This document shows positions 4,446-36,398 of a DNA stretch of 56,423 bases, one piece after another. The first letter of the stretch is position 1. Each line of letters begins with the position of its first letter. This DNA is from Candidatus Hydrogenedentota bacterium (GTDB lineage: Bacteria > Hydrogenedentota > Hydrogenedentia > Hydrogenedentales > JAEUWI01). The position numbers and the translations under genes were made by a program. The DNA lies in NCBI GenBank assembly GCA_016182605.1, contig JACPGE010000014.1:1-56423 (forward strand), written 5' to 3'. Under the pieces are notes generated by a model, which saw only the letters and a list, made by a program, of their open reading frames with translations, did not search any database and was not told the origin of the DNA.

Positions 4446-4615
4446 TTGGCCATTCTCTCCCGGGCGGCTTCGTGCGAGAGGGTGTTCTGGTCTTCAGACT
4501 GTTGCAGGCCTCGCTCCAATTTTGCCATGAAAAGCAGACGTTCCATGGCGTCTTCAAAGCTGGCGTCGGCGGGAAGATTTTCCACGGCTTGGCGCACTTT
4601 TTCCTGTATGGTCAT
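4433..4615 (-). CDS. Antitoxin partner of the RelE/ParE toxin (60 aa)
   Basis: This small helical acidic protein begins MTIQEKVRQAVENLP and ends with a charged tail, AARERMAKWLK. AGGAG lies seven bases before the ATG. It precedes and overlaps the toxin gene, the standard antitoxin-toxin order. The N-terminal half contains a predicted amphipathic helix region (VRQAVENLP, FEDAMERLLFMAKLERGL), similar to short antitoxins that wrap the toxin with a C-terminal helix. No clear ribbon-helix-helix or HTH motif is visible, so autoregulation cannot be inferred from sequence. The function is assigned mainly from context. Confidence 0.8.
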   Translation of the reverse strand: MTIQEKVRQAVENLPADASFEDAMERLLFMAKLERGLQQSEDQNTLSHEAARERMAKWLK

Positions 4616-4713
4616 GGCGGCACTCCTGGTGGCTTGAAGCTCATTCTAACACAAGACAGCGCCATTGTCCTTTGAGCCCACTCTCTCCCGGGCGGCGCGC
4701 CGTTCGTCCAGGA

Positions 4714-6033: not shown

Positions 6034-6186
6034 CTTCAGGTCTCCTGATAGCCGGAACAGAATTCGAAATCCCGTTCACAGCGTTTTTGAAATGTTCAAG
6101 GCTCGTTTTGTGCTCTGCGGACAACTTCGCCGATTAGAGTAGCCGCCCGGCCCGCATTCCACAAGTCCACGCTCCCCGCCGCCCGG

Positions 6187-6216
6187 TTGAGGTTATTTCA
6201 GGTCTGGCAGTATAAT
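6187..6216 (+). promoter_or_regulatory. Sigma-70-type promoter for ispG
   Basis: TTGAGG at 6187-6192 and a perfect TATAAT at 6211-6216 are 18 bases apart, 47 bases before the ispG start codon, with AGGAG directly upstream of that start. Confidence 0.6.
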
Positions 6217-6262
6217 AAATACAGGCAGCAGCAGCCCACAGCCACCCCAGGAGCCCATCCCC

Positions 6263-7501
6263 ATGTCCTTTTTTCCCCGCGCACAGACCATTCCCGTAGA
6301 GGTCGGCGGCATCACCGTCGGTGGCAATGCGCCCGTAGTTGTCCAGTCCATGACGAACACCGACACGGAAGACGCCGCCGCGACGGCGGAGCAGGTCTAT
6401 GAACTTGCGGAAGCGGGTTCGGAACTCGTGCGCATCACGGTGAACACGCCCAAGGCCGCCGAGATGGTGCCGGAGATAGTCCAGCGTTTGCACGATCGCG
6501 GTTGTTCCGTGCCGGTCATCGGCGACTTCCACTTCAATGGGCACCGGTTGCTCTCCAAGTATCCCGGATGTGCGGAGGCCCTGGCCAAGTACCGCATCAA
6601 CCCCGGCAATGTGGGAAAGGGCGTCAAGCGCGACGAACAATTCGCCACCATCTGCGAGATTGCGCGGGACAACAACAAGCCCGTGCGCATCGGCGTGAAC
6701 ATGGGATCGCTCAATCCGGAACTTGTGCTGGAGAAGATGCAGGAGAACACGGATCAGGACTTCGGCAAGGACTCGGACGAGATCATGAACGAATGCATGA
6801 TCATCTCCGCGTTGCAGTCCACGGAACTCGCGCAGGAATGCGGGTTGCGCGAAGACCAGATCATCATCTCCTGCAAGACCAGTGTGCCCCAGTACCTCAT
6901 CCAGCTCTACCGCGAACTCAGCGCCAAGACCCGCCAGCCCCTGCATCTCGGTCTCACCGAGGCGGGCATGGGCATGAAGGGCCAGATCTGGTCGGCCGCT
7001 TCCATGGGCGTGCTGCTCGCGCAGGGCATCGGCGACACCATCCGCGTTTCGCTCACGCCACAGCCGCGGGGAGACCGCCGCGAAGAGGTCTACGCCGCGC
7101 AGGAAATTTTGCAGTCGCTGGGCCTGCGCCAGTTCGCACCGAGCATCACCGCGTGCCCCGGCTGTGGCCGCACCACGAGCACTACTTTTCAGGAACTCGC
7201 AAATGAGACCCAGGCCTACGTGCGCCTGCGCATGCCGGACTGGAAGAAAGACTACGACGGGGTGGAGGGCTTGAAGGTCGCGGTCATGGGCTGCGTGGTA
7301 AACGGTCCCGGCGAGAGCAAGGCCGCGAATATTGGCATCAGCCTGCCTGGCAACGGAGAAGACCCGGTGTGCCCCGTGTTTGTCGATGGCGAGCGCTATG
7401 CCAACTATTCGGGAGATAAAGATAGCCTTTCGCAGCAGTTCCGGGATTTGCTGGAGGGCTACGTGGAGAAGACCTATCCGAAGAAGACAGCGGGGGTGTA
7501 G
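6263..7501 (+). CDS. ispG: 4-hydroxy-3-methylbut-2-en-1-yl diphosphate synthase
   Basis: The 412-residue protein opens with the IspG signature TIPVEVGGITVGGNAPVVVQ and SMTNTDTEDAAAT, continues with the TIM-barrel motif VGNFHFNG-like GDFHFNGHRLL and NPGNVGKG, and ends with the reductase-like 4Fe-4S domain. The cluster ligands are all present: C298 and C301 in CPGCGR, C344 in GCVVNGPGE, and E351. The enzyme converts methylerythritol cyclodiphosphate to HMBPP in the non-mevalonate isoprenoid pathway and needs an intact cluster. It is about 40 residues longer than the E. coli enzyme, mostly in the linker before the last cysteine and at the C-terminus. It has its own promoter and is followed by two LPS kinase genes. 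Confidence 0.97.
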   Translation: MSFFPRAQTIPVEVGGITVGGNAPVVVQSMTNTDTEDAAATAEQVYELAEAGSELVRITVNTPKAAEMVPEIVQRLHDRGCSVPVIGDFHFNGHRLLSKYPGCAEALAKYRINPGNVGKGVKRDEQFATICEIARDNNKPVRIGVNMGSLNPELVLEKMQENTDQDFGKDSDEIMNECMIISALQSTELAQECGLREDQIIISCKTSVPQYLIQLYRELSAKTRQPLHLGLTEAGMGMKGQIWSAASMGVLLAQGIGDTIRVSLTPQPRGDRREEVYAAQEILQSLGLRQFAPSITACPGCGRTTSTTFQELANETQAYVRLRMPDWKKDYDGVEGLKVAVMGCVVNGPGESKAANIGISLPGNGEDPVCPVFVDGERYANYSGDKDSLSQQFRDLLEGYVEKTYPKKTAGV

Positions 7502-7505
7502 GGGG

Positions 7506-7540
7506 TATAGGTCGTATAAACCTATAGGTCCTATCGTTCC
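7506..7540. repeat. Degenerate 9-nt micro-tandem array
   Basis: Four imperfect units (TATAGGTCG, TATAAACC, TATAGGTCC, TATCGTTCC) lie directly behind the ispG stop codon. The type resembles the arrays at 3192 and 21871 in position and unit length but has a different unit sequence. Confidence 0.55.
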
Positions 7541-7571
7541 TGCGCAGCTTAATTCTCAGGATTATCCTATC

Positions 7572-8300
7572 GTGTCATTCCCCCCCAAAGGTTTTGAAGT
7601 CATCCAAAATGGCGCGTGGACCTTTTGCGCGCGACCGCATGCCCTGGAAGATCTCCGTGCTGCCGTCATGCAGCCAGGGCCTCCCGATGCTGCCCTCGAT
7701 GGCGGGCGCGGCGCCGTATGGACCTTCGAAAGCGGAGGCGCAACGGTCGTCCTGCGCCGCTACCGGCGTGGCGGCCTCATGCAGCACCTGCTTCACGATC
7801 GCTACCTGGGGAACCGCCCCCTGGCCGAGTTCAACGTGTGGCACGCAGCGGAGAGCGCCGGCTTGCCTGTGCCCGCGCTCGTCGGCGTGGCCTGGCTGAA
7901 ACGCGGCCTCTTCTATCAGGGCGCGATCGCTACAGCGCTTGTCGAGGCGAAACCCCTATTGGACCTTGTGAACATATCCGGCAAAAACGTCGACGCCCTC
8001 GGCCGCGAGTGTGGCCATGCAATCCGCCGAATGCACGATGCCGGGATTTGGCACGCGGATCTGCAGGTAAAAAACATCCTCATTCATGGCGCGAAGGCAC
8101 TGCTCATTGATTTTGACGCCGCAAAACAGGTAGATTCCATGCGCCGGACCCAGCGTTGGCGCAATCTTTACCGGCTTCGGCGCTCCTGCGAGAAACACGG
8201 CCTGCCCGGGGGCCTGTTCAAGGCCATTTGTGCGGGTTACGGCGAGCCAAACGGTCCCCACTGGCTCAGTTTCCTTTACCGGCTTCGGCGTTTCTTCTAA
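7572..8300 (+). CDS. 3-deoxy-D-manno-octulosonic acid kinase-like protein (KdkA/WaaP type)
   Basis: The frame is open far upstream inside ispG, but homology-like sequence starts around VSFPPKGFEVIQNG, so the GTG at 7572 is chosen (AGGA about ten bases before it). The 242-residue protein has the KdkA pattern: RRYRRGGLM, then a LEAKPL-like lid region, the catalytic loop WHADLQVKNIL with H161 and D163, and the metal-binding LLIDFDAAK. The C-terminus has the RRTQRWRNLYRLRRS segment typical of the family. KdkA phosphorylates the Kdo residue of lipid A-Kdo at the inner membrane. Together with kdsB on the opposite strand this supports an LPS outer membrane. A broader LPS core kinase assignment is possible. 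Confidence 0.82.
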   Translation: MSFPPKGFEVIQNGAWTFCARPHALEDLRAAVMQPGPPDAALDGGRGAVWTFESGGATVVLRRYRRGGLMQHLLHDRYLGNRPLAEFNVWHAAESAGLPVPALVGVAWLKRGLFYQGAIATALVEAKPLLDLVNISGKNVDALGRECGHAIRRMHDAGIWHADLQVKNILIHGAKALLIDFDAAKQVDSMRRTQRWRNLYRLRRSCEKHGLPGGLFKAICAGYGEPNGPHWLSFLYRLRRFF

Positions 8301-20838: not shown

Positions 20839-21777
20839 ATGTCTACCTCTTCCCCCGAACGCTCCAAGGGCTTCACCCTCATCGAACTACTCGTCGTGAT
20901 CGCCATCATCGGTATCCTGGCGGCCATACTCCTCCCGGCACTGGCGCGCGCGCGCGAAGCCGCACGCCGCGCCTCCTGCCAAAACAACCTCAAGCAGATG
21001 GGCGTCGTCTTCAAAATGTATTCCGGCGAAAACCGGGACCACTTTCCCCGCCTGCACGGCGATCAGCCCTTCGGCGCGGAAGCCAATGCAACTGGCTGCG
21101 ACACGGAATCCTTCCAGGACTTCGGTGTCTTCGGTCCCGACATGGTTGCGCTCTATCCCGAGTACCTGAGCGACCCGAAAGTCCTCATTTGCCCCTCGGA
21201 CACCGAAGCGGGCGAAGCGAATCCCCTGGAAATCGTGGCCGACGACGGCAGCGGCGCCTGCGGCTACGTGGGCCTGGTGACGCACTCCGACGCAAGCTAC
21301 AACTACATCGGTTATGTGCTCGATGCCGTGGACGAAAGCGACGCCCAAGTCCCCGCGCCAGAGATGGTGCCTGCACAGTTGCTCGCCCTCGCCTCCGTGC
21401 TCGGCAGTGTCGTCTTCAATCAAGACCCCGCCGATGACGTCACCGCGGACGATGACGTGGATCTGAGCGGCGTGCCCGGCTTTGGCGGCGCGGGCTTCGG
21501 CAACGGCGGTTCGGAAACAGTCTACCGCCTGCGCGAAGGCGTCGAGCGCTTCCTCGTCACCGACATCAACAATCCCTCCGGTTCCGCCCAGGCACAGAGC
21601 GTCCTCCCGGTAATGTGGGACAACATTGCAGCGGTCGTAAGCGGCAACATTGGTTTCAACCACGTGCCCGGCGGCTGCAACGCACTCTACATGGACGGCC
21701 ACGTCGCTTTCGTCCGCTTCGGCGAGACCTTCCCCGCAACCCCCGGGAACGCGACCCTGAATTCCTTGTTCGAATAA
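20839..21777 (+). CDS. DUF1559-type prepilin-like protein
   Basis: The N-terminus has the type IV prepilin cleavage site [15 protein letters not shown] followed by a hydrophobic helix and the [19 protein letters not shown] segment characteristic of PVC DUF1559/H-X9-DG proteins. The C-terminal part contains [20 protein letters not shown], the H-x9-DG signature ([13 protein letters not shown]). Such proteins exist in large numbers in PVC genomes, are exported by a type II secretion/pilin pathway, and probably assemble in pseudopilus-like or surface structures. The 312-residue length is normal. A clear terminator follows at 21803. It probably forms its own transcription unit, 45 bases after the hydrolase gene. 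Confidence 0.93.
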
Positions 21778-23000: not shown

Positions 23001-23208
23001 GCCCGGATAAATCACGGGCTCCACGCGTCTGTTCCCTAATTCCTTCTTAGACCTACAATTGCCACATCATGCAGGGCGCTACCGCCAGACAGCCCGTGAT
23101 TTAGCCTGCCCGGTGAACGCCAGCACCAACGTCACGCTGAGCATATTTCACCACGTTGCCAATCCGAATGCGATCCGGAGGTCGCAAAGTGGTGAAATAT
23201 GCGGGTTA
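23001..23208 (-). repeat. Two-hairpin dispersed repeat, copy 3
   Basis: Read on the minus strand it starts directly at the dcd stop codon (TAA-CCCGCATATTTC) and contains both hairpins. The first stem is 14 bp and its loop is nearly identical to that of copy 2. The second stem is 13 bp (TAAATCACGGGCT with AGCCCGTGATTTA) and its loop matches copy 1. It fills most of the gap between the NUDIX and dcd genes. Confidence 0.87.
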
Positions 23209-23748
23209 GCGGCGCGCGTTTTCCTCGTCGAGGAAGGCGCGCGATCCCGTAGTGACCTGCTGTCCCTGGTACTTGCCCCGGTAAGGCTTCAACACGGGCG
23301 CGTCGGCCTTGGCGATCACCAACTGGCAGATGCGCCAGCCGGAAATGATGCGCATGGGCGCGGCATTGGCATTGTACAGCTCCAGGGTAATCGCGCCTTC
23401 AAAGCCCGGATCGACCCAGCCCGCATTCTGAATGAAGAGGCCGCTCCGCCCGATGGAACTGCGCCCTTCGACAAAGGCGGTGAGGTCCGCGGGCAGCTTG
23501 AGGAATTCGACCGTCGTCGCAAGCACGAATCCGTGGGTGGGGATGATGAAGTCGTTGCCCTCTACCTGATCGTACTCGATTTCCTCGGCCAGCGAGTAGA
23601 TGCCGGCTTTGGTGGGCCGTGGGGTCAGAAAGATGGTCCCCAGGCGCAAATCGACCGAGGCGGGCCCGATCTGCATGTCGTCCAGCGGATCGATGACCAC
23701 GGTGCCCTCAGCCAGTAACGATCGAATGGTGCCGTCAGAAAGAATCAT
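23206..23748 (-). CDS. dcd: dCTP deaminase family enzyme
   Basis: The 180-residue protein starts MILSDGTIRSLLAEG and shows the trimeric dUTPase-fold motifs: QIGPASVDLRLG, VEGRSSIGRSGLFIQNAG with the catalytic Arg/Ser, and WVDPGFEGAITLELYN with the catalytic Glu. The C-terminal tail AKADAPVLKPYRGKYQGQQ closes over the nucleotide. The enzyme makes dUTP (or directly dUMP in bifunctional members) from dCTP for thymidylate synthesis. The NAGWVDPGFEG wording resembles the bifunctional DCD-DUT group, but this cannot be decided by eye. The stop codon coincides with the edge of the dispersed repeat copy 3. Confidence 0.95.
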   Translation of the reverse strand: MILSDGTIRSLLAEGTVVIDPLDDMQIGPASVDLRLGTIFLTPRPTKAGIYSLAEEIEYDQVEGNDFIIPTHGFVLATTVEFLKLPADLTAFVEGRSSIGRSGLFIQNAGWVDPGFEGAITLELYNANAAPMRIISGWRICQLVIAKADAPVLKPYRGKYQGQQVTTGSRAFLDEENARR

Positions 23749-24944: not shown

Positions 24945-25877
24945 TCAGGGGAGCATGGAGGCCGCGGCGAGGCGCGCCAGGTTTTCCTGCATGGCGGCGA
25001 GATAGTCTCCGCTGGAGGGCACATTGGCAAGCGGATAGAAGACGACCGGCTCCAGGCCCAGGGTCTTGAGGCGGGCGGCGATGGCGGGATTGGGATCGCC
25101 TTCCCAGATCACGAAGCGCGCGGCGTGGGTCTTCAGCAGTTCCTGCAGGGCCGACCACTCCGCCTCTTCAGGCATTTCCCCCGGCTCCCAGTGCAGGCTC
25201 TTCAAATTCCATTGATAGCGCCGCGCGAGATAATTGTAGACCGGGTGGGACGCGATCAGAGGCTTGTCCGCTATGCGTCCGGAAATTTCGGTCAAGCCCA
25301 GGTCGATCTTCTTCAGATCCTCCTTGAGTGCCGCGGCGCGTTCCTGAATCGCGGTTGCTTCATTCGGCAGCTTGCCGGCGAGTGCCGCGGCGATCGCGTC
25401 CACCTGCTGCACGGCGATGTCCGTATCGAGCCAGGTGTTGAAGTCGAATCCGGCGTGCGCGTGTTGCCCTTCCGGGCCGTGGCTGTGCACCATGGCATCC
25501 TGGATTTCGATGTATTGCGGTGCGGCAGCCGACGAGGTGTCCACCACGCGCGATTCGGGCAGCGTGGCCTTGGCTACCCATTTTTCGAAGTCTGCGCCAT
25601 TGAGCAGAATGAGGTCCGCCGCTTGGTAGGCGGCAATGATTTCCTCGCTGGGATCCCAGTAGGCGGGATCCTCATCCGCGGGTGCGGGAAATTCAATGCT
25701 GGCGGCCTCTCCGGCGAGGCGCTTCGCAAAGTAGTACACGGGATAGTTCGTGGTGTAGACCGTGGTGGCCGCAGCCGCCGTCTTGCCAGCGCCGGCGGGG
25801 GCTTGTTCAGCTTCCTTCGAACAGGCGCCCAGCACGAGGGCCAGGCACAGCGCAGCCAGGCCAGTGAGTTTCTTCAT
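24945..25877 (-). CDS. ZnuA/TroA-like metal-binding lipoprotein
   Basis: The signal peptide ends in a lipobox (LVLGAC, C19), so the 310-residue protein is a lipoprotein. The cluster A-I fold is recognisable: VYTTNYPVYYFAKRLAG at the start, ADLILLNGADFEKW, a short His-rich loop VHSHGPEGQHAHAGFDFNTW followed by LD, the ASHPVYNYLARRY strand with a candidate ligand His, and a C-terminal LKTLGLEPVVFYPL. The canonical first ligand, the His of DPHxYEP, is replaced (DPAYWDPSEE), so the site has changed or uses the loop histidines. It is the last gene of a unit with an FtsX-type permease instead of a ZnuB partner. Zinc or another transition metal is inferred, not shown. Confidence 0.82.
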   Translation of the reverse strand: MKKLTGLAALCLALVLGACSKEAEQAPAGAGKTAAAATTVYTTNYPVYYFAKRLAGEAASIEFPAPADEDPAYWDPSEEIIAAYQAADLILLNGADFEKWVAKATLPESRVVDTSSAAAPQYIEIQDAMVHSHGPEGQHAHAGFDFNTWLDTDIAVQQVDAIAAALAGKLPNEATAIQERAAALKEDLKKIDLGLTEISGRIADKPLIASHPVYNYLARRYQWNLKSLHWEPGEMPEEAEWSALQELLKTHAARFVIWEGDPNPAIAARLKTLGLEPVVFYPLANVPSSGDYLAAMQENLARLAAASMLP

Positions 25878-25894
25878 AGGATTGTCCTTCCAAG

Positions 25895-27073
25895 TTAGGC
25901 CAGAAAGGTGCGCATGAGTACCGGCGCCAATTGCAGGACCAATACGAGCGCACCGGCAGAAAACAGGGAACTGATACCGCCAATGAGGATCAATTCCGCG
26001 CCAACCAAGGTGATCATGGTGTGGCGGCTGCAGCCCAGCTTGTGCAGGGTCTGCAATTCCGTGCTGCGCAGGCGCAGCGAAAGGCTGATGATGAGCACAA
26101 GAAAGAGCACGGTGGCGGCTGCAATGCAGACCACGGTGTAGTTGAAGATGCGCTGGGCCTTGAAAACCATTTCCATGATCTCGCCCACCACATCTTCGGG
26201 AATCACGAGTTGCGCGGCGGCATCCTGTTGCTCGTAGCGCCCGCGCAGCAACACGGCGGATTTCTCATCCCTCGGCAGCGCGATCAAGGCCGTGATGGGG
26301 AAGCCCGCCGGATCGCCGTGAAAGTGGAAGGAGCCGATATTCTCGTCGGTAATCTCGGTGTATTCCGGCAAAGCCGCGTTCGCCACCACGGTGTTGCCCG
26401 TGCGATCCAGGATGACCGATTCATCGGCTTTGCTCACGTCCTGGTGGCCGTGGCCCAACCCGGCGATGACCCAGGCGGTCTTGAGGTCGACGAAGACGGC
26501 GAAGTCATCCTCAGTGCGCTCCTCAGCGAGCACCCCTGTCACGCGCATGTTCAATGGATAGGCGCCGGAGAGATCAAGCACATTCTCGCTGTCTGAAAGC
26601 AGGCGATCGCCCGCGCCCAGGGCCAGCGCCTGGGCCACCCGTGCGCCGAGCACGCAATCGCCGAGTTTGGCAATTTGATGTCCGGAGGCGACGCGCAGAT
26701 CACGAAAGTCGAAATAGTCGAGGGTGGCGCCCACGATGGGGAAAGAGCGGGCCGTGAAACGGCCATAGAGCGGCACGGGAATGGCCAATCCGGCCTCGCG
26801 CAGTTTCGCGGCCTCCGCCATGCCGATCGGCGCGGGCGCCTTGCTGCGGAAGTAAAGCGCGTGCAGACTGAGATCGACACGGCTTCCCTTCGCTCCAATC
26901 ACCATGGGGGTGGAGGCCGCGCGGGACATCAGCCATTCTTCGCCAAAGCGAACGAGAATGAAGACAGCAGCAGGCACGACTATCGTAAGGGTGACGCCAC
27001 AGACGAGCAATACGCTCTTGATGCGGTTGTGCCGGATGTATTGCCAGGCCAGGTAGAAGGCGTGCATGTTCAA
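25895..27073 (-). CDS. FtsX/MacB-type ABC transporter permease
   Basis: The 392-residue protein has one N-terminal helix (YIRHNRIKSVLLVCGVTLTI with the following hydrophobic stretch), a large extracytoplasmic domain (about 45-270) and three C-terminal helices: TVVCIAAATVLFLVLIISLS, then MITLVGAELILIGGISSLFS and LVLVLQLAPVL. The LRLRSTELQTLHKLGCSRH segment is the coupling helix of the FtsX superfamily. Such permeases drive mechanical or lipoprotein-related work in the periplasm and do not form a substrate channel like ZnuB. Its stop is 17 bases before the ZnuA-like gene and its start overlaps the ATPase gene by four bases. Confidence 0.88.
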   Translation of the reverse strand: MNMHAFYLAWQYIRHNRIKSVLLVCGVTLTIVVPAAVFILVRFGEEWLMSRAASTPMVIGAKGSRVDLSLHALYFRSKAPAPIGMAEAAKLREAGLAIPVPLYGRFTARSFPIVGATLDYFDFRDLRVASGHQIAKLGDCVLGARVAQALALGAGDRLLSDSENVLDLSGAYPLNMRVTGVLAEERTEDDFAVFVDLKTAWVIAGLGHGHQDVSKADESVILDRTGNTVVANAALPEYTEITDENIGSFHFHGDPAGFPITALIALPRDEKSAVLLRGRYEQQDAAAQLVIPEDVVGEIMEMVFKAQRIFNYTVVCIAAATVLFLVLIISLSLRLRSTELQTLHKLGCSRHTMITLVGAELILIGGISSLFSAGALVLVLQLAPVLMRTFLA

Positions 27074-27747
27074 TCGGCCTCCTGCGCGAGCGTGGCGAAA
27101 TCGATCACGCGATCGAAACCGGACAGAAGGCTGTGGTCGTGCGTCACCATCAGGAGGGTCGCGCCCGATTGCTGTCGTTGTGCCGTGAGCACTTCCATGG
27201 CGTGCTGTTTCGTGCGTGGATCCAGGTTGCCGGTGGGCTCATCCGCCAGCAACAGCCGCGGCGCGGTCACCAGCGCACGGCACAGGGCGACCCGCTGGCG
27301 CTCGCCCTGGGAGAGTTGCTGAATCGGTCGATCCAGCTTGCCCGCGAGCCCCAGTTCATCGGCGCAGCGGCGGGCCCGTTCGGTGACGTTGGCATCGAGC
27401 GTGAGCACCGGGTTCACACGGAATGGCAGAAGAATATTTTGCAGGACGTTCAGGTAATCGAGCAACGAAAAGTCTTGAAAGACGAATCCGATATGTTGAA
27501 TGCGGAAGGCGCGCCGTGACGCGTCGCTGAGCGTGTTAATCACCGTCTCGCCCAGCCGCACCGCACCCTGTTCGGGGGTGATGATGCCCGCAATGAGGTT
27601 GAGCAGGGTGGTCTTTCCGGAGCCGCTCGGCCCCACGATGGCGATACGTTCGCCGGCGGCAACGTGCAATGCATCCAGCGCCAGCGTGAAGCGCCCCTGT
27701 GGATAGGCAAAGCGCACGCAATCCAGGGCCAGTTCCATGCCGTTCAT
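27070..27747 (-). CDS. ABC transporter ATP-binding protein (LolD/MacB type)
   Basis: Start MNGMELALDC at 27747 overlaps the stop of the upstream gene in ATGA; the longer open frame to 27924 is a shadow. The 225-residue protein has a Walker A (GPSGSGKTTLLN), a Q-loop (FVFQDFSLLDYLNVLQNILL), the signature LSQGERQRVALCRAL, Walker B (LLLADEPTGNLD) and the H-loop (MVTHDHSLL). The ADEPTGNLDP wording and the QDFSLLDYL loop place it with the LolD/MacB/FtsE class that works with FtsX-type permeases. It pairs with the permease at 25895. Confidence 0.93.
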   Translation of the reverse strand: MNGMELALDCVRFAYPQGRFTLALDALHVAAGERIAIVGPSGSGKTTLLNLIAGIITPEQGAVRLGETVINTLSDASRRAFRIQHIGFVFQDFSLLDYLNVLQNILLPFRVNPVLTLDANVTERARRCADELGLAGKLDRPIQQLSQGERQRVALCRALVTAPRLLLADEPTGNLDPRTKQHAMEVLTAQRQQSGATLLMVTHDHSLLSGFDRVIDFATLAQEAD

Positions 27748-29558
27748 GAGGGCAAGACACGCAGTCCGGTGTCGAACTTGACGCGCTCTTCGGATATCAC
27801 GTCCATACCCGTGATCTTCCAGCCGCTTTCCAGCGCCTCCACCTTGAAGCGGGCCTGGTACTGGTTTGTGCGGGTGTGTATGTGACCCCAGTGTTCCACG
27901 CTGCCTTCCACCTGCCACGTGCATAGCATGGCGAAGGCGCGCGCGGGATCGGCCCCCTCCAGCGGCGCGTGTTCCGCGTTAACGATGCGCACGTCCTTGA
28001 TGCGGGAAATGGCGCCGCCCTGCTCCTGCATTTCGAGGCCCTTGCGGATCTGGAGGTAGAGCGTGGCGAGGAGATCGCCGCCCACACTCTTGTCCAGCGC
28101 GTCGTAGACGTCGCTTTCGATGCGGTAGTCGAAGGCGCGATAGACATTCTTGTGCAGGGCGGCAAAGAGGTTTGCGGCCTCCTCGTCGGAGAGGGCCTGG
28201 TGATTTGAGAAGGGATCCGCGATTTCCACGGGCTGCCAGGGCCAGCCGGCGGCACCGGCCAGCAACAGGGCGGCACACAGGAGCATCGGTCCCCGGCGGC
28301 GGCGGTACAGGGCCACGGGCAACACAGGCAGGAGGAGGAGTGCGGCCCCCAGGCTAATCACGGGCAAGGCATACTTCTTTGCGGGCGGGGGCGGATCGAG
28401 GGTGGCGATATCGGTGGCGGCTTCCCGTCCGGGATTATTCCATTCGAAGATGGGTTCACGGCGGGTAAAGACTTTCTGATTCGTGTTGTCGTAGTCGTAA
28501 ATCATGGAGTAGAGCACGGGCACATAGTTGTTGAACATTTCCCAGGTGAGTTTGACGGCGTTGGGCGTGCCCTTGGTGCTGTAGTTGAGGATGATGCCGA
28601 CGCGGGCGGTGTAGGCGCTCAGGCGTTTCTCCGGGGCGAGCTGTGCAAAATCCTTGAAGTCGAGCCCGTAATACACGATATTTTCCAGCGAAGGCTTCAC
28701 TGCAATGCCGTCGACCTCTACCGGATTGCGATCGCGGAAATAGGCGAAGATCGCATCACGCGCTGCGTGCTGCTCCTCCACTTCGATGAAGGCTTTGTCT
28801 CTGCGCTCGATGGGCATCCAGGATTCCAGCGTGAGGAGCGGAATGAGGATCTCGTGGCGCACCTCGAAGTCGGTGATGTAGAAAAACGAATAGACGGCGC
28901 CATACGAAGTGAAGCCGAGCTTCTTCTGGTTCTCCTGTTCGAAGTAGGCAGAGGCCTCTTCTGGGGAGGCGTCCGCGGGGGGCGGTGGCGCGTCCCAATC
29001 GATGTCGATGGCGTAGGGCACGTCTTTGGGCAGCATGAAGGGGCGAAACATGCCTTCACCTTCGCGCTTCAGGGTGAGCCACATGGAGGCGGGCAGGAAA
29101 GAATCCGCGCCGCCGAAGACCTGAATGAAGGTGAGGAACTTCGGGGCATCTGCGAGGGGAAAGTGGAGCAGGTACTCCACGTTGAACTGCATGAGATTCG
29201 CGATGTGCACACCTTCCTCGGGGAGTTCCTGGGCTGTCATGCCCGTGACCTCGCCTGCGATGGTCAGCCCCTCCAGATCCCTTATCTGGAAGAAGTCCTT
29301 TACAAAGGTTTTGTGTTTTTCCATGGCTTCGTTGAGCGTGGCCACGGAAAGGTAGCCCTCATCACTCGCCTTGAGATCCTGATAAAGATAGAGATCTTCC
29401 AACAGGATCTTGAGCTTCACATCGACGCGGTCGCGGTAGATGTCGGCTTCGGCTTCGCTGAGCGAGACGGGGTGCGCGGCGGCGGGCTGGCCCGGCAGCA
29501 CGAGCGCGGCGAGGGCAAGCAGCGCGAAAAAGGTCTTTGACTTGAGAGATGACTTCAT
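27744..29558 (-). CDS. Large exported protein of the ZnuA/FtsX-type ABC unit (unknown function)
   Basis: Start MKSSLKSKTFF (29558) gives a clean signal peptide cut near AAAHPVSLSE, leaving an exposed N-terminal His. The opening HPVSLSEAEADIYRDRVDVK resembles the first strand of HupE/UreJ-type periplasmic leaders. The 604-residue protein has a long periplasmic part (about 29-390), two adjacent membrane helices (about 395-440: YALPVISLGAALLLLPVLP and LLCAALLLAGAAGW), then a C-terminal domain (about 445-604) with EQGGAISRIKDVRIVNAEH. I do not recognise the family. The stop overlaps the ATPase start in ATGA, so it is coupled to the ABC unit and is probably its periplasmic partner. Confidence 0.7.
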   Translation of the reverse strand: MKSSLKSKTFFALLALAALVLPGQPAAAHPVSLSEAEADIYRDRVDVKLKILLEDLYLYQDLKASDEGYLSVATLNEAMEKHKTFVKDFFQIRDLEGLTIAGEVTGMTAQELPEEGVHIANLMQFNVEYLLHFPLADAPKFLTFIQVFGGADSFLPASMWLTLKREGEGMFRPFMLPKDVPYAIDIDWDAPPPPADASPEEASAYFEQENQKKLGFTSYGAVYSFFYITDFEVRHEILIPLLTLESWMPIERRDKAFIEVEEQHAARDAIFAYFRDRNPVEVDGIAVKPSLENIVYYGLDFKDFAQLAPEKRLSAYTARVGIILNYSTKGTPNAVKLTWEMFNNYVPVLYSMIYDYDNTNQKVFTRREPIFEWNNPGREAATDIATLDPPPPAKKYALPVISLGAALLLLPVLPVALYRRRRGPMLLCAALLLAGAAGWPWQPVEIADPFSNHQALSDEEAANLFAALHKNVYRAFDYRIESDVYDALDKSVGGDLLATLYLQIRKGLEMQEQGGAISRIKDVRIVNAEHAPLEGADPARAFAMLCTWQVEGSVEHWGHIHTRTNQYQARFKVEALESGWKITGMDVISEERVKFDTGLRVLPS

Positions 29559-29662: not shown

Positions 29663-30925
29663 CTATTCGTGGCGCAGCGCCTCAATGGGGTCGAGGTTGG
29701 CGGCGCGCACCGCGGGGTAGAGCCCGAAGAGGATCCCCACAGCGACCGAGATGCCCACAGACAGCATGAGACTCGAAGCGGTGACGATGGTGGGCATGCC
29801 GGCAAAGAATGTGACCAGCCACGGGATGGTGATGCCGATAAGAATGCCGATGAAACCGCCGGTGGTGCTGAGCACGATCGTTTCGATAAGAAACTGGACG
29901 ATGATCTGTTTCTTCTTCGCGCCGATGGCGCGGCGGATGCCGATTTCGCGGGTGCGCTCGGTAACGGATGCGAGCATGATGTTCATGATGCCGATACCGC
30001 CCACAAGCAGGCTGATTCCGGCAATGGAGCCGAGCACAATATTAAAGTTGCGTTTGGTCGCCTCGGCCTGGCGCAAGAGGGCCAGCGGCACGCTGATCAC
30101 GTAGTCTTCCTTGGTGTGGAAATGCTTGAACATGCCTTCGATGCCCGCGGCGGTGCGCTCCACGTTGTCATTGGTGTCCACCTGGACGATCAGTTGCTGC
30201 AGCTCCACGCGCTCGCGGGATCGGGTCCCGGCGCTGTTCTTCACGACCATGTCGCCAAACTGTTCCCGGGCAATGTTGATGGGCACGTAGGCGTCCACTT
30301 CCTGGTCCGGCACCTGGACGCTGCCGCCCTGGCCGCTTTCACTGCGGATGATGCCGACCACTTCAAAGTAGTCGCCGCCGAGGCGCAGGTAATTGCCGAT
30401 GACGGCTTCCGTGGCGAGTAGACGCCGTGCGCCGAATTCCGTAAGTACAACCACGTTGGCGAATGCGGTGACATCGTTGGCGGTGAACACGCGGCCCGCG
30501 ACCAGGGGGCGTTGAACGAGTTCGAACCAATCCGGGGTGGTGCCCACGACGCGCAATTCGAGGGAGCGCGCGTTGATGCGGCCTTCTTTCCGCACGAGTT
30601 TGACCGGCGCGGTGCGTTTCACGGCTTCGAAGGTTTCCCGGATCCGCACTTCGTCGTCATAGGTGATGCCGTACATGCTCATGAAGATGCGCTGCGTGGT
30701 TGCGGCCTCTTCTTCCTGCGGTTTGCGCGAGGAGATGATGATGTTGGTGCTGCCCAGTTTGCGAAGCTGGTCGAGGGCCTCCTTGCTTGCGCCCTCGCCG
30801 ATACTGAGCATGGCGATGACACTGGCAACGCCAAACACGATCCCGAGCATGGTGAGCATGGAGCGGAGTTTGTGCAGGAGCAGATTCTTGACGCCCAATT
30901 GAATATCGCGGAGCTGGCGTATCAT
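29663..30925 (-). CDS. MacB-like ABC permease of a tripartite efflux system
   Basis: Start MIRQLRDIQLG at 30925 overlaps the ATPase gene by four bases; the longer open frame is a shadow. The 420-residue protein has the MacB/FtsX plan: helix 1 (RSMLTMLGIVFGVASVIAML), the SIGEGASKEALDQLRKLGSTN motif that is nearly diagnostic of MacB, a large periplasmic domain (about 50-285) and three C-terminal helices beginning ISLLVGGIGIMNIMLASV, with TERTREIGIRRAIGAKKK as coupling helix. It exports substrates from the periplasm together with the adaptor encoded upstream; an outer-membrane TolC partner is not in the window. Confidence 0.95.
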   Translation of the reverse strand: MIRQLRDIQLGVKNLLLHKLRSMLTMLGIVFGVASVIAMLSIGEGASKEALDQLRKLGSTNIIISSRKPQEEEAATTQRIFMSMYGITYDDEVRIRETFEAVKRTAPVKLVRKEGRINARSLELRVVGTTPDWFELVQRPLVAGRVFTANDVTAFANVVVLTEFGARRLLATEAVIGNYLRLGGDYFEVVGIIRSESGQGGSVQVPDQEVDAYVPINIAREQFGDMVVKNSAGTRSRERVELQQLIVQVDTNDNVERTAAGIEGMFKHFHTKEDYVISVPLALLRQAEATKRNFNIVLGSIAGISLLVGGIGIMNIMLASVTERTREIGIRRAIGAKKKQIIVQFLIETIVLSTTGGFIGILIGITIPWLVTFFAGMPTIVTASSLMLSVGISVAVGILFGLYPAVRAANLDPIEALRHE

Positions 30926-31635
30926 GCGTTGCGATCGATTCTTTCTACGTTGCCGTCGCGCATGTGCACGCGTACGTTGGAGTGGGCGGCGACTTCGTCT
31001 TCGTGGGTCACCATGATGATGGTTTTGCCTTGCCCGTTCAGTTCGGACAGGAGCGACATGATTTGCTTGCCCGTGGCAGAGTCCAGGTTGCCGGTCGGTT
31101 CGTCCGCCAGGATGATCCTCGGATCGTTGGCGAGCGCGCGCGCGATTGCCACACGCTGCTGCTGGCCGCCGGAGAGCTCCAGGGGGCGGTGTCCGAGCCG
31201 GTTGCCGAGCCCCACGCGATCCGCGAGTTCCCGTGCCCGTTCGACACTGCGCTGGCGGTCCCACTCCAGATAGTAGAGGGGCAGCGCGATGTTTTCACTC
31301 ACGGTGAGCTGGGGAATCAGGTTGAAGCTCTGAAAGATGAAGCCAATCCGTTTCAGCCGCAGATCGCTGAGCTGGTTGTCATCCATCTGGCTCACGTCGT
31401 GGCCGTCCATCTTGAAAAGGCCCGAGGTGGGCCGGTCGAGACAGCCCAGCAAATTGAGCATGGTGCTCTTGCCCGAGCCGCTTGGCCCGAGTATGGAGTA
31501 GAATTCGCCCTCGTCGAAGTCCAGCGTGACACCGTCGAGCGCGCGCACTTCCGAGTCGCCCATGATATACGTCTTGTGAACGTTCTCGATCTGGACCAGA
31601 GCGCGCCGTTGCAGCTCAGGAAGCGGCATTGGCAT
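30922..31635 (-). CDS. MacB-like ABC transporter ATP-binding protein
   Basis: Two ATG codons (31635 and 31629) overlap the end of the adaptor gene, so translation is coupled; the longer frame to 31776 is a shadow of the adaptor's Gly/Arg-rich tail. The product of about 237 residues has Walker A (GPSGSGKSTMLNLLG), Q-loop (FIFQSFNLIPQLT), signature (LSGGQQQRVAIARAL), Walker B (IILADEPTGNLDS) and H-loop (MVTHEDEVAAH). The NLIPQLTVSENIALPL wording is the LolD/MacB class. It is split from its permease, unlike E. coli MacB, where both parts are one chain. Confidence 0.95.
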   Translation of the reverse strand: MPMPLPELQRRALVQIENVHKTYIMGDSEVRALDGVTLDFDEGEFYSILGPSGSGKSTMLNLLGCLDRPTSGLFKMDGHDVSQMDDNQLSDLRLKRIGFIFQSFNLIPQLTVSENIALPLYYLEWDRQRSVERARELADRVGLGNRLGHRPLELSGGQQQRVAIARALANDPRIILADEPTGNLDSATGKQIMSLLSELNGQGKTIIMVTHEDEVAAHSNVRVHMRDGNVERIDRNA

Positions 31636-33520
31636 CACCACCCGCTGGCGGGGCTGTCTCGGCGCCTTCACGCACGGGGCGCGGCTCGCTGCCGCCGGTC
31701 TGTCCGGCGCCTTCGCCACCCTCACGGCGGCCTTCACCACCACCTCCGGCCTGATCGCCGCCTTCTCCGCCGCCACGGCGCCGCCGTCCTTCGCCCCCGC
31801 CGCGACCGCCTTCTCCGCCGCCGCGCTGCTTCCGGAACTCTTCGCGTTGTTCCGGGGTCATGTTGCGCCACTTCTCGCGCATTTCTTCCGTGATTTCAGG
31901 GCGTCCTTCGCCGCCCTCGGGCCGCCGCCCGCCGGCCTCGGGCGTGGCTCCATCGGGTCCGGGCGTTGCGGGCTTGCGTTCCATCACGGGTTCCATATGG
32001 CGCGTCTCATCGGTGAGCCCCTCAATGGTCACGTCAACCGGGGGGCTGAGTGGCGGATCCAGAAGTACGACTTCGCCCTCCTCCACGCCGTTCTTGATGT
32101 GGATCATGCTGTTGTTATCGAGGCCAATATTGACCGCATACGGCGTTGCCTTGCCGCCGGCGAGCTTGAAGACGACGGGCTGTTGCACCACGCGGGTCAC
32201 GGCCTGTATGGGCACATAGAGCGCATCGTCGTAGGACTCCACCAAGACCTGGGCGCGGCAGCTCATGCCGGAACGAAGCCCGGTGGTCTCGCCATCCAGA
32301 AAGATTTCGGTCTTGTATACCTTCAGGTCGGGGTTGAGCCACACGCTCTGCGCATCGGGCATGGGCGCGATGGAGTCAATCACCCCGGAGTACTTCCGCC
32401 CGGGCAGGGCATCCACCGTAACTTCCACCCGCTGGCCCACGCTCAACTTGTTCAGGTTGCTCTCGTGGACCTCCACCGAGGCCTTGAAGGCGTCTGCCGT
32501 GGGCAGGTGAATCAATTCCTGCCGCTCACGCACCGTCTGGCCCTCGTCGAGGGGCTCGTCATTGCCCCGCCAGTTGCCGCGGCCGGACGACGCATAGATC
32601 ACCCGCGAATCGCTCGGCGAATAAATCTTGGTCTTGGTGATCTGATCCTTGAGTTTGGCGAACTTGGAGGTCTGCTGGTTGAATTCGGCTTCCTTCGCGC
32701 TGTGGTTGGCCTTGGCCTGCGCCACATCCGCGGCGGCCTTGCGCTGCGAGCGCTCCAGCGCCATCGCGGTTTGCACGACCAGGCTCTCGAACTCGGTGAG
32801 GCTGCGCTTGTACTGAAAGTTTACCAGCAGATCCCGCTCCGCTTCGGACAATTCCAAATCGAGTTTCGCCTTTTGCGCCGACTGCTCTTTCGCCTGCATT
32901 TCGGAATTGGTGATGAATTCCTTCTCGAAGAGTTTTTTCGCGCCCACCAACTGGTCTTCCGCAATGCTCACTTCTGACTTCGCAATGATGATCTTGGACT
33001 CCGCCGCCTTCAATTGAGTCGGGTACTCCCCGTTCTTGTAGTTCTCCAGATCTTCAATGGCGAACTGCGCGTCCAGCGTGGCCTTGTCCACATCGCTCTT
33101 CGCCTGGTTCTCCGCCACGGCGAGATTTTCCCGGGCGCTGATGAAGGCGGCCTCTGCGTTCTGAAGGCGGATGTCCTGTTCCACCAACTCATCGGCCAAT
33201 TCTGTCCCGTCGAGTTCCACGAGCAGATCGCCTTTTTTTACCTCGGCGCCTTCGGGCACGATGGTGAGAATGGTGGTCTGGCCCTCCACCTCACACTTGA
33301 GGATTTCTATGTCCCGCACCTGGATGCCGCCGGCCAGTGTCACCGAAATATCCAGGGGGCCGCGTTTGACGGAAAAGGTGGGGTCGTTGATGGCGCCGCT
33401 CGCGGGGGTGGCCACGGATTTGAGCCAGACGCCGGCGCCCACCACGGCGATGGTAATGAGACCTGCCGCGCCATAAGTCAGGACGCCGGAGGCGCGCTTG
33501 GAACGGGTAGAGACTTCCAC
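31616..33520 (-). CDS. HlyD/MacA-type periplasmic adaptor with Gly/Arg/Glu-rich tail
   Basis: A GTG at 33520 (AAGG eight bases upstream) gives VEVSTRSKRASG and a signal anchor LITIAVVGAGVWLKSV; the frame is open upstream but without coding character. The 634-residue protein has a lipoyl/barrel-sandwich half (VEGQTTILTIVPEGAEVKKG), a long coiled-coil hairpin (about 140-330, rich in A, E, K, Q), the second lipoyl half and a beta-barrel (SVGQRVEVTVDALPGRKYSG). The last ~90 residues are unusual: a Spy-like MTPEQREEFRKQR helix and a long Gly/Arg/Glu-rich low-complexity tail. It is the first gene of the block and links the MacB-like pump to an outer-membrane channel. Confidence 0.9.
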   Translation of the reverse strand: MEVSTRSKRASGVLTYGAAGLITIAVVGAGVWLKSVATPASGAINDPTFSVKRGPLDISVTLAGGIQVRDIEILKCEVEGQTTILTIVPEGAEVKKGDLLVELDGTELADELVEQDIRLQNAEAAFISARENLAVAENQAKSDVDKATLDAQFAIEDLENYKNGEYPTQLKAAESKIIIAKSEVSIAEDQLVGAKKLFEKEFITNSEMQAKEQSAQKAKLDLELSEAERDLLVNFQYKRSLTEFESLVVQTAMALERSQRKAAADVAQAKANHSAKEAEFNQQTSKFAKLKDQITKTKIYSPSDSRVIYASSGRGNWRGNDEPLDEGQTVRERQELIHLPTADAFKASVEVHESNLNKLSVGQRVEVTVDALPGRKYSGVIDSIAPMPDAQSVWLNPDLKVYKTEIFLDGETTGLRSGMSCRAQVLVESYDDALYVPIQAVTRVVQQPVVFKLAGGKATPYAVNIGLDNNSMIHIKNGVEEGEVVLLDPPLSPPVDVTIEGLTDETRHMEPVMERKPATPGPDGATPEAGGRRPEGGEGRPEITEEMREKWRNMTPEQREEFRKQRGGGEGGRGGGEGRRRRGGGEGGDQAGGGGEGRREGGEGAGQTGGSEPRPVREGAETAPPAGGDANAAS

Positions 33521-33716
33521 GGGATACACCTTTCTTGGGGATCGGGCACATATACCCGCATAATGGAACACCGGCTGGGCTAAAATGTTCCACCTTATGG
33601 ACCTGCGCAGGAGGACATTAGTTTTGATAAACGGCGCGAAAAATGCCGTCGAAGGCGCTGCGCCCGTTTCAGGAGATGAGGACAAGGCTCCCGGAGTGCC
33701 GAGGCTTGTGCAATTT

Positions 33717-36398
33717 TCACGGTTCAGGTGGCGGCGTGACGCCCAAAGGACGGACCCCAAGCACCTGAACCACGCCATTGGCCAGTGCGCAGACCAACTC
33801 GCTGCGGCCGTCGCCGGTCAGGTCGGCAACGATCAACCGGTTCACACCAGCCCCAGTCTGAAAGGTCCAGAGCAGCCTGGGTGTTCCACCTGCATCGCCC
33901 AGGGCAAGGACGTTGCCGTGCGAGGTGCCGACTACAAATTCGAGTTGGCCGTCGCCATCCACATCGGCGGCAATGGTGTCGCTGCATGCCCCGCCGGTGG
34001 GGACTTCCCAACGGAGCTTACCGTCCAGCATGGAGACACAGGCGAAGGCGCCGTTCTGTCGGCCGAATCCCATCATCCAGGCGCCGTTTGCCAACGGCAC
34101 AAATCCCTCCTCCGCGCACCGGTTCTGTCCTGCGGGGGGCAGGCTGTACCAATGGGGTTGGCCATCGAGTGAGAGGGCGCCTTGAAAATAATGCCCGCCC
34201 GCCAGGGCCACCATCGGCTGGGTGCCAGGCGCGCCGTCGAGCACGGCGGGAAAGGTGTAGAGCCCCTGTGAGGGTTGGTTGAAGATCGTGGGCGGAAACA
34301 GGGGCCCCAGCAGCAAGTCGCCGGTGCGTCCCGAGGCCACGCAGTAGTAGTCCGGGTTGGTGAAGATCAGATCTTCCGCGCCGTCGCCGTCGAGATCGGC
34401 GGCCGATGCGTCGTTCATGGTGGGCGCCCAATAGCGTTCTGTTTCCGGGAGTTGGCCCTTCTCCCATTGCACGGCGCCGCTGAGCCCGTCAAGCACGAGG
34501 CTCCGTACGACTGGCGTTCCAGCGAACACGTATACGTCGGGCGTGGCTTTGCCGGTAAAGCGCCCGGTGCGGAGGTAGGCGGTGCGTGGCTGGGGCAGCC
34601 CGGTGCGATCGGGTGCGCCCAACTGCTGCCGCCACAAGACGCGCTGACCCAATGCGGGCGTCAGCGCTTCGATGATGGGCGTGTTCACGGGCGAGACGGC
34701 GATCGCGATCACTTCAGTATGGCCATCGCCATTGAGATCGGCCAGCGCAGGCTCCACGCTGCTGATCCATTCGCCCGCGGGTTGAAATGCGCCGTCCGCA
34801 AATTTCCACGCGCGCATACGGCTGCCATCGAAGGTGAGGAGTTCGTTTATGGTGTCCGAATCGAGATCGGCCGCGAGCAATGTGGGCGCAGGCGGCCCGG
34901 CGATCGCGGGCACATTCGCAAAGACCGGTGCGGCAGGCGGAGGGGGTGGCGTGAAGGGATGCATGCCCACGGCGCCCGCCTCTGTTCGCAGTTCAAAGAC
35001 GCCCGCGGCGGTGCGCACCAGCGGGAGCCGCTCTCCCGAAACCGGAAATAGCGTGGTGCCGCTGTTGCGGGAGACCGCCGCGCTTTGGGGCGTGGTGACT
35101 TTGAGTGCGGTGGCCCGCGCATCCGACCACAGCACCGCGGGCGCGGCATCGGGCGCGCAGCGGTACACCGTTGCGCCTTCAAGACGCTGATGCACGGGGT
35201 CGGCGCAGCGGTTGGCGAGAATCTCCGCGGCGCCATCGCCGTCCACATCGTGGAGGGCCGCAGCCACGGTGTCCTCCAGCGTGTGTTCTATTGCGCCGGA
35301 AACGGTATCGTAGATACGCGTCTTCCATCGCGCGTCGTTGTCACCGTTGAAAATGGAGACCACCACTTCTTGTTGTCCGTCGCCATCGACGTCTGCCCAG
35401 GCGGGCTCGGGCCAGGCTGTGGCGACCTTGCCGGTGGTGACACTTTCCGCCCAGCCGTGGGACCACGCTTTCTCCAGGGCGCCTGCGCGATTGAGGAGGA
35501 CTTCGTGGTGCTGCGAAAAATCCGCGATGCAGAGAAAATCGGTCCAGCCGTCGCTGTTGAGATCGGTAAAGGTGGTGAGGCCGTAGCTGCGCACGTTTGC
35601 GGGGGCCACGTCCCACTGCACGAAAGACTCCCGCGCGCCCGTCGCAGGATCGAGGATCCACATGCGGCTGTGGGTCTCCACCACGAGTTCCGTGACCCGA
35701 TCGTTATCCACATCGGCCCGAAGCAGACTGGGGAAGCAGGTGTACTGATCGAAGTCATAGCGCCAGCGCTGTTCCGGCACGCGCGTGCCCGGAGCAGCCG
35801 CGAACAGCGCAATGTACCCATTTTGTGCGTCGGGCGGGTAGCCCTGCATGATCACGATGATCTGGCGCGTGTTCTCGTTTGGAAGATAGGCGCCCAGGTA
35901 CAGGTACCACTGATAGGACATGGGATCCACATCGTATCGCCACAGCACCGCACCATCGGCAAGCGAGATCAGCACCGCGGCTCCATAGGGCTCCGCCGCA
36001 CGGCCTGCCTGCAAGAGCAGTTCCTCCACGCCGTCGCCATCCAGATCGGCCACGGCGGACAACTGCGTGAAATTGAGTCCTTCCGGGTGGGCGCTCCAGC
36101 GGGTGAGGCCGTGCTGATCGAAGCAATGCAGCGCTCCAGCCACAATGGCGACACCCCAATACCCGTCGCCTTCCGGGGCACGCACGGGGGTGAGCCCGGG
36201 CGCACTGCGGCCCAGATCGAGTTCGCCGAGCAGTGACGGCGCCTCGGTCATCGCGCCGGGCAACGGCTGCACCGCGGTAAGGTGACTGTTCTGCCGTGGC
36301 TCGGGCCAATCGCCGGGCGCGGCAAGGGCCCGCGCGCTGGCAATCAAGACGCCCAGGCACAGCATGCGCGCTGCTGCTTGCCTCCGTGCGGGCGGCAC
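33717..36398 (-). CDS. Exported FG-GAP/VCBS repeat protein
   Basis: A GTG at 36398, four bases after the stop of the DUF1501 gene, gives RRQAAARMLCLGVLIASARA, a signal peptide. The Shine-Dalgarno site is weak, and ATG at 36365 is an alternative. The 893-residue protein contains about ten Ca-binding FG-GAP/VCBS units, for example DLDGDGVEELLLQ, DVDNDRVTELVVE, DLNSDGWTDF, DVDGDGQQEVVVS, DLNGDGHTEVIA and DVDGDGQLEFVVG, spread over the whole chain as in integrin-like beta-propellers. It has no catalytic domain. It is probably an extracellular binding or scaffold protein made with the DUF1549 and DUF1501 proteins in one transcript. Confidence 0.9.
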   Translation of the reverse strand: MPPARRQAAARMLCLGVLIASARALAAPGDWPEPRQNSHLTAVQPLPGAMTEAPSLLGELDLGRSAPGLTPVRAPEGDGYWGVAIVAGALHCFDQHGLTRWSAHPEGLNFTQLSAVADLDGDGVEELLLQAGRAAEPYGAAVLISLADGAVLWRYDVDPMSYQWYLYLGAYLPNENTRQIIVIMQGYPPDAQNGYIALFAAAPGTRVPEQRWRYDFDQYTCFPSLLRADVDNDRVTELVVETHSRMWILDPATGARESFVQWDVAPANVRSYGLTTFTDLNSDGWTDFLCIADFSQHHEVLLNRAGALEKAWSHGWAESVTTGKVATAWPEPAWADVDGDGQQEVVVSIFNGDNDARWKTRIYDTVSGAIEHTLEDTVAAALHDVDGDGAAEILANRCADPVHQRLEGATVYRCAPDAAPAVLWSDARATALKVTTPQSAAVSRNSGTTLFPVSGERLPLVRTAAGVFELRTEAGAVGMHPFTPPPPPAAPVFANVPAIAGPPAPTLLAADLDSDTINELLTFDGSRMRAWKFADGAFQPAGEWISSVEPALADLNGDGHTEVIAIAVSPVNTPIIEALTPALGQRVLWRQQLGAPDRTGLPQPRTAYLRTGRFTGKATPDVYVFAGTPVVRSLVLDGLSGAVQWEKGQLPETERYWAPTMNDASAADLDGDGAEDLIFTNPDYYCVASGRTGDLLLGPLFPPTIFNQPSQGLYTFPAVLDGAPGTQPMVALAGGHYFQGALSLDGQPHWYSLPPAGQNRCAEEGFVPLANGAWMMGFGRQNGAFACVSMLDGKLRWEVPTGGACSDTIAADVDGDGQLEFVVGTSHGNVLALGDAGGTPRLLWTFQTGAGVNRLIVADLTGDGRSELVCALANGVVQVLGVRPLGVTPPPEP

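Follow-up and report, generated by a model that had tools for sequence, protein, structure and literature searches.

Here we describe four tightly packed genes on the minus strand of a contig from a Candidatus Hydrogenedentota bacterium (GCA_016182605.1, JACPGE010000014.1). They occupy positions 24945-29558 of the window, the whole stretch of 56,423 nucleotides that was analysed, in the order D-ATPase-permease-ZnuA-like. On balance, and with modest confidence, we favour the reading that they encode one periplasmic metal-handling ATP-binding cassette (ABC) system that belongs to the MacB/FtsX (mechanotransmission) kind, is related to Zrg and PA4063-PA4066 and most likely acts on copper. The system would be induced by copper limitation in methanotrophs and would shuttle scarce copper to periplasmic or membrane proteins. 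The genes are as follows.

27744-29558, minus strand: protein D, 604 amino acids (aa); a signal peptide precedes the predicted mature N-terminus HPVSL, followed by two anglerase/ZrgA-like domains in tandem, a membrane segment and, at the C-terminus, an NTF2-like domain
27070-27747, minus strand: ATPase of the FtsE/LolD/MacB type, 225 aa
25895-27067, minus strand: MacB/FtsX-type permease, 390 aa, in a clade of its own and homologous to ZrgB/PA4065-type permeases
24945-25877, minus strand: ZnuA-fold lipoprotein with a degenerate cleft metal site, 310 aa

The D and ATPase genes overlap by 4 bp, the ATPase and permease genes are nearly contiguous, and a gap of 17 bp separates the permease from the ZnuA-like gene. 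The ZnuA-like protein is a full-length member of PF01297 (151 bits, cut-off 29). The permease matches MacB_PCD (PF12704) at 32.7 bits (cut-off 27) and the FtsX C-terminal domain (PF02687) at 19 bits, which is under the 25.5 cut-off. The ATPase matches ABC_tran at 115.7 bits, and its best NCBIfam relatives (FtsE, L_ocin_972 and LolD) all fall under the curated cut-offs. No Pfam domain was matched in the scan of the window protein D, and the Pfam scan of the four genes found neither DUF3299 nor PF10986 domains. These calls agree with an earlier note, made from the letters of this DNA, which reported a ZnuA-like lipoprotein, a LolD-type ATPase, an FtsX-type permease and a 604-aa protein in adjacent or overlapping genes. 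That note also recognized the loss of the first metal ligand of the ZnuA fold and the HupE-like leader of the 604-aa protein, both of which are borne out below.

From the family alignment, the ZnuA-like proteins have apparently moved their metal ligands from the interlobe cleft to a fixed hairpin of four histidines. In the window protein the first cleft ligand motif, DPHxYEP, has become DPAYWDP. The second cleft histidine, which the earlier note overlooked, is gone too (DPHxWLDP has become DFNTWLD). The first position is a histidine in none of the 66 aligned family members (alanine in 47) and the second in 3 of the 66 (threonine in 47). The third ligand histidine is retained in 48/66. The histidines of the putative new site are these.

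25455-25487, minus strand: HSHGPEGQHAH hairpin of the ZnuA-like protein (H131, H133, H139, H141), from the family alignment and the model

H131 and H133 are present in every one of the 66 aligned members, and H139 and H141 in 64. The spacing of the HxHG-x4-HxH motif is constant in 64 of 67 sequences; of the other three, one is truncated and two are divergent. In the other two ZnuA proteins of the source genome both cleft histidines are retained and the fixed HxHG-x4-HxH motif is missing. The AlphaFold model of the window protein (predicted local distance difference test, pLDDT, 91) has the AdcA/YcdH fold. DSSP assigns two short strands to it, at residues 130-132 and 138-140, and therefore the four histidines would sit on a hairpin. 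A ZnuABC importer with a swapped permease was considered and rejected, because the cleft ligands are lost throughout the family and not just in the window sequence.

The permease carries two paired-histidine motifs of its own.

26444-26452, minus strand: GHGH motif in the periplasmic region of the permease (H206, H208), from the family alignment
26318-26326, minus strand: FHFHG motif in the periplasmic region of the permease (H248, H250), from the family alignment

All four histidines are invariant in the 50 aligned members. No HxH or HH motif was found in seven permeases that adjoin genuine ZrgA (PF10986) genes, and the HxH motifs thus mark the present permease family. The family profile nevertheless matches these seven ZrgB permeases at 69-102 bits, by which measure the permease is homologous to ZrgB/PA4065. 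In a phylogenetic tree the 50 family permeases form their own clade (support 0.90), and the seven ZrgB proteins form another (0.999). The pairing of an FtsX-type permease with a metal-binding protein, at first taken to be unprecedented, is not new because of this relationship: Zrg of Vibrio cholerae and PA4063-PA4066 of Pseudomonas aeruginosa already pair them in this way, with a different binding protein.

Protein D is the largest and most complex of the four, and the following features were delimited in it.

28983-29477, minus strand: domain 1, residues 28-192, starting with His29 at the predicted mature N-terminus, from DSSP of the AlphaFold model and Foldseek of the whole model
28413-28907, minus strand: domain 2, residues 218-382, which repeats domain 1, from a profile-profile match of the halves
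27747-28211, minus strand: C-terminal NTF2-like domain, residues 450-604, from the secondary structure of the model and from Foldseek hits on NTF2-like proteins such as ARC6/PARC6
27870-27893, minus strand: HWGHIHTR motif (H556, H559, H561, R563), from the family alignment

The signal peptide ends in PAAA and the predicted mature protein starts with HPVSL (His29; the cleavage site was predicted by eye). The two N-terminal halves match each other with a profile-profile probability of 94% (E 1e-7). The HWGHxHxR residues H556, H559, H561 and R563 are invariant in all 39 aligned members. The AlphaFold model (pLDDT 84, predicted template modelling score 0.59) was searched as a whole with Foldseek, a tool that did not report the matched residues. 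The matches were the copper-bound Ang-1 domain of a HupE/UreJ-2 protein (9gce), ZrgA (8f1b, 8ezw), PA4063 (7bgo) and the NTF2-like ARC6. Because of the secondary structure of the model, the Ang-1 and ZrgA matches are assigned to the N-terminal region and the NTF2-like match to the C-terminal region, both assignments being model-based. When D was compared by sequence with solved structures there was no useful result; the matches came from the fold search alone. Two relatives of D match HupE_UreJ_2 and two match DUF6702, all weakly, and a Pfam scan found no match to the HupE/UreJ permease in the window D. Ang-1 binds Cu(II) with a dissociation constant (Kd) of 74 nM and Ni(II) with a Kd of 220 nM. 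The paper on Ang-1 also describes a mono-histidine brace formed by His1 and names ZrgA as the closest structure (PMC12537917).

The permease alignment was used to scan GTDB genomes, where it found at least 237 relatives, and 80 loci were kept for neighbourhood counts. Each count was restricted to loci with enough flanking DNA, as contig ends explain part of the apparent gene absences. The ATPase is adjacent to the permease in 74/77 testable loci, a ZnuA-like gene is near it in 62/68, D is near it in 43/60, and all four genes occur together in 35/52. The hosts of the kept loci include Gamma-, Beta-, Alpha- and Deltaproteobacteria, Planctomycetota, Verrucomicrobiota, Kiritimatiellota, Nitrospinota, Entotheonella, Myxococcota, Gemmatimonadota and Thermoanaerobaculales. 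Since the same order recurs in dozens of genomes and many phyla, the arrangement is not due to chance.

The earlier note had asked whether the order is conserved in genomes related to the Planctomycetota-Verrucomicrobiota-Chlamydiota (PVC) group. Conservation holds, and extends across many phyla, but it is not centred on PVC: the permease family is common in Pseudomonadota and rare in Hydrogenedentota, where it occurs in 3 of 68 genomes. A PVC-specific system was rejected on this distribution. Pairing of the binding protein with a ZnuB-type permease, which the note named as refuting its view that this is no ZnuABC-type importer, occurs in 0 of the 80 related loci, and the four genes form a conserved unit. 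On the sequence evidence, then, the system is not ZnuABC: both the cleft histidines and a ZnuB-type channel permease were looked for, the first being lost and the second lacking from these loci.

Within Hydrogenedentota, genome G041 keeps all four genes in order. In genome G033, D directly follows a Zrg-like ATPase/permease pair (locus 4373-8049), and a family ATPase/permease lies elsewhere without a ZnuA-like gene, which suggests that D can switch partners. The nearest named relative within the phylum is a Candidatus Hydrogenedentota metagenome-assembled genome (locus L084). Plasmid records of Methylomagnum ishizawai and Paracoccus liaowanqingii have the same gene order, with a short D in the latter. 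MBL-fold hydrolases are recurrent neighbours, located beside D in about ten loci. Pirellulales-type loci (L100, L102, L105, L112, L123, L128 and L129) have an 800-aa protein inserted between the permease and the ZnuA-like gene, with a DUF4332 match in the single member scanned. The ZnuA-like proteins of these loci have lost the third ligand histidine as well.

The identity of the metal is best addressed in methanotrophs. The permease is found in 26 of 38 Methylococcaceae genomes versus 5 of 143 sampled from the class, and two of those five are Methylococcus-type. In Methylococcus-type clusters the order is BNR protein-CopC (PF04234)-PmoD-like-D-ATPase-permease-ZnuA-like, with a TonB receptor nearby. 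The PmoD-like protein matches 6cpd at 1.2e-9. Five genomes judged to be Methylococcus each have exactly one ZnuA-family (PF01297) gene, which is the ZnuA-like gene of the cluster, and two copC genes, one of them within about 5 kb of it. According to Larsen and Karlsen (PMC4831470), MCA2168-MCA2179 of Methylococcus capsulatus Bath comprises hypothetical genes, a ZnuABC-like ABC system and copC, and responds to copper limitation with a strong rise. The pmoD homologue MCA2170b, beside copC, is upregulated without copper (PMC6688271). Given one ZnuA-family gene per Methylococcus genome, together with copC and the pmoD homologue, MCA2168-MCA2179 is very probably the present system. A copper role is probable because the periplasmic parts carry invariant paired histidines and the methanotroph relatives sit in a copper-shortage cluster. 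The earlier note named no metal; the present evidence points to copper, coming as it does from methanotrophs, and for other hosts copper would be an extrapolation.

A mechanism can be proposed for such a system. By analogy with MacB and Zrg, the cytoplasmic cycle of ATP binding and hydrolysis would set the periplasmic domain of the permease in motion, and the ATPase and MacB-like permease would not be expected to make an import channel. The GHGH and FHFHG histidines of the permease may relay metal between the periplasmic partners, D and the ZnuA-like protein. The latter would act through its four-histidine hairpin, and D through its anglerase/ZrgA-like domains and the HWGHxHxR NTF2-like domain. 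The net outcome would be the capture of scarce copper and its delivery to copper proteins or chaperones of the periplasm or membrane. A stricter form of this proposal is possible although we hold it as doubtful: a machine that loads or extracts copper, spends ATP in the cytoplasm and moves metal between periplasmic proteins only, with none crossing the inner membrane, and that includes a ZnuA-derived protein with a relocated site. If true, a periplasm-only copper machine would add a new function to the MacB/FtsX superfamily and reveal a new fate of the binding-protein fold.

Several points weigh against a copper shuttle of this kind. Metal binding and transport by the four proteins are predictions. 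The hairpin stretch of the ZnuA-like model is of low confidence (about 65). The likeness of D to ZrgA is structural only, as a profile comparison of the two is not significant. The N-terminal histidine of D is present in only the window protein and about eight of 38 aligned relatives; those with a histidine start are mainly from Hydrogenedentota, Planctomycetota and Verrucomicrobiota, and most Pseudomonadota members start with DW. The probable identity with MCA2168-2179 is argued from the gene content of five genomes, which were assigned to Methylococcus because their permeases are 80-85% identical to that of a named Methylococcus locus. Outside of methanotrophs the neighbours indicate several metals. 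NikR lies beside the Methylomagnum cluster, and DUF4198 proteins, a family with a nickel-binding member (PMC12537917), lie beside the Paracoccus and Entotheonella clusters. On a plasmid of Rhodobacteraceae M382 (locus L050, 4842-9116) a lone D follows two MBL-fold hydrolases near urea-transport and urease genes.

These nickel-related neighbours raise the alternative that the metal is nickel, or varies, with one machine adapted in each lineage. The alternative bears on the metal alone and can stand together with the mechanism proposed above. Binding of nickel by Ang-1 also favours it (PMC12537917), but the best-documented relatives are copper-responsive and carry copC and pmoD, and we regard a nickel or variable specificity as rather improbable. 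An importer is unlikely as well. Here the ZnuA-like protein or D would hand metal, zinc in most hosts, to the MacB-like permease for high-affinity uptake into the cytoplasm, as has been proposed for Zrg. ZrgA is needed for growth of V. cholerae in zinc-poor medium (PMC9820375), the permeases are homologous to ZrgB, and the binding protein has the ZnuA fold. However, the cleft site of known importers with this fold is lost, the source genome already has two other ZnuA/ZnuB-type loci, and the sole expression data indicate copper. We also know of no import channel in MacB/FtsX permeases.

Export of a metal chelate or metallophore, with the ZnuA-like protein and D stripping or reloading periplasmic metal, would resemble the pyochelin-cobalt proposal for PA4064-PA4065. 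A PA4065 mutant accumulates pyochelin/cobalt and the protein has a MacB-type fold (PMC11481552), and TonB-dependent receptors lie close to some of the clusters. We judge export distinctly unlikely: no metallophore biosynthesis family is recurrent among the neighbours of related loci, and no MacA/TolC partner (adaptor or outer-membrane channel) is conserved in the cluster. Finally, the FtsE/LolD-type ATPase and the lipobox of the window ZnuA-like protein might suggest Lol-like extraction or assembly of lipoproteins, the cargo being that protein or another envelope metalloprotein. Cargo extraction is disfavoured because most ZnuA-like relatives have no lipobox (it is recognisable in just 9 of 67). 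The permease histidines are invariant, and Lol permeases are not, to our knowledge, dependent on such residues. A Lol-like role is very improbable.

The source genome (6.8 Mb) has two more ZnuA-family genes. On contig C110 a znuA gene is found with ABC and permease genes. On contig C73 (3903-13485) znuA, znuB, a FUR-family regulator and a metal P-type ATPase adjoin a Zrg-like ATPase/permease pair and a DUF3299 protein. The region resembles a canonical zinc-starvation island that carries its own Zrg-type pair, and no ZrgA was seen there. Contig C26 (845-3466) carries a further Zrg-like ATPase/permease pair with a DUF3299 protein after it; the permease of this pair has an HSHEEDH-type stretch. 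Within the window, a MacAB-type efflux set (HlyD-like protein, ATPase and MacB-type permease; 29663-33778, minus strand) lies about 100 bp upstream of D; it looks unrelated because it was not seen to recur as a neighbour in the related loci. Downstream of the four genes is a 180-aa dCTP deaminase/dUTPase-like open reading frame (23206-23748, minus strand). A protein with a prepilin-type N-terminal methylation motif (DUF1559-like; 20839-21777, plus strand) lies further away. Both were judged from the letters alone.

It is an open problem by what route methanotrophs such as M. capsulatus obtain copper and supply it to particulate methane monooxygenase. Larsen and Karlsen state that nothing is known of copper transfer from MopE into the cell (PMC4831470). 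A defined four-gene system with specific residues is now offered. The analysis also shows that, in many phyla, proteins routinely labelled as zinc ABC transporter substrate-binding proteins no longer have the zinc site.

No literature on the four-gene system was found beyond the M. capsulatus cluster. That cluster (CRC 3, MCA2168-MCA2179) shares copC, the pmoD homologue and the ZnuABC-like ABC system with the Methylococcus members. It was published as a putative copper transporter similar to ZnuABC, and the portion of the paper considered (PMC4831470) mentions neither the MacB-type permease nor the loss of the ZnuA site, and neither the histidine motifs nor the domains of D. ZnuA, AdcA and AztC (cluster A-I, PF01297) have the fold and full-length homology in common with the present binding protein, which however has lost both conserved cleft histidines, has a four-histidine hairpin and has no ZnuB-type partner. 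The anglerases (Ang-1/Ang-2, HupE_UreJ_2) and DUF6702 proteins resemble the N-terminal region of D in fold, in the histidine at the mature N-terminus of the window protein and in weak Pfam matches of some relatives. D differs in that it has no HupE channel, contains the domain as a tandem repeat, ends in an NTF2-like domain and does not always begin with histidine. MacAB-TolC has the same class of permease and presumably the same mechanotransmission, but the present ATPase is on a separate chain and neither an adaptor nor an outer-membrane channel is conserved.

A close parallel is provided by Zrg (ZrgABCDE) of Vibrio and PA4063-PA4066 of Pseudomonas. In each operon a LolD-type ATPase and a separate MacB/FtsX permease accompany a periplasmic metal-binding protein, the permeases are homologous, and the model of D resembles ZrgA/PA4063. 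The known relatives disagree on direction, because Zrg was proposed as a zinc importer in V. cholerae (PMC9820375) and PA4064-PA4065 as a pyochelin-cobalt exporter (PMC11481552). There are differences too: the present permeases branch apart from ZrgB and have invariant HxH motifs that are their own, a ZnuA-fold protein serves as the partner, and D is large, has several domains and is anchored in the membrane. None of the four genes carries a PF10986 or DUF3299 domain. The system works like a Zrg-type system, yet its permease clade and the lack of DUF3299 among the four genes set it apart from Zrg, and D resembles the Zrg binding protein in fold without a Pfam match to it. The association of metal-binding proteins with an ABC pair of the MacB/FtsX type extends beyond Zrg as a theme.

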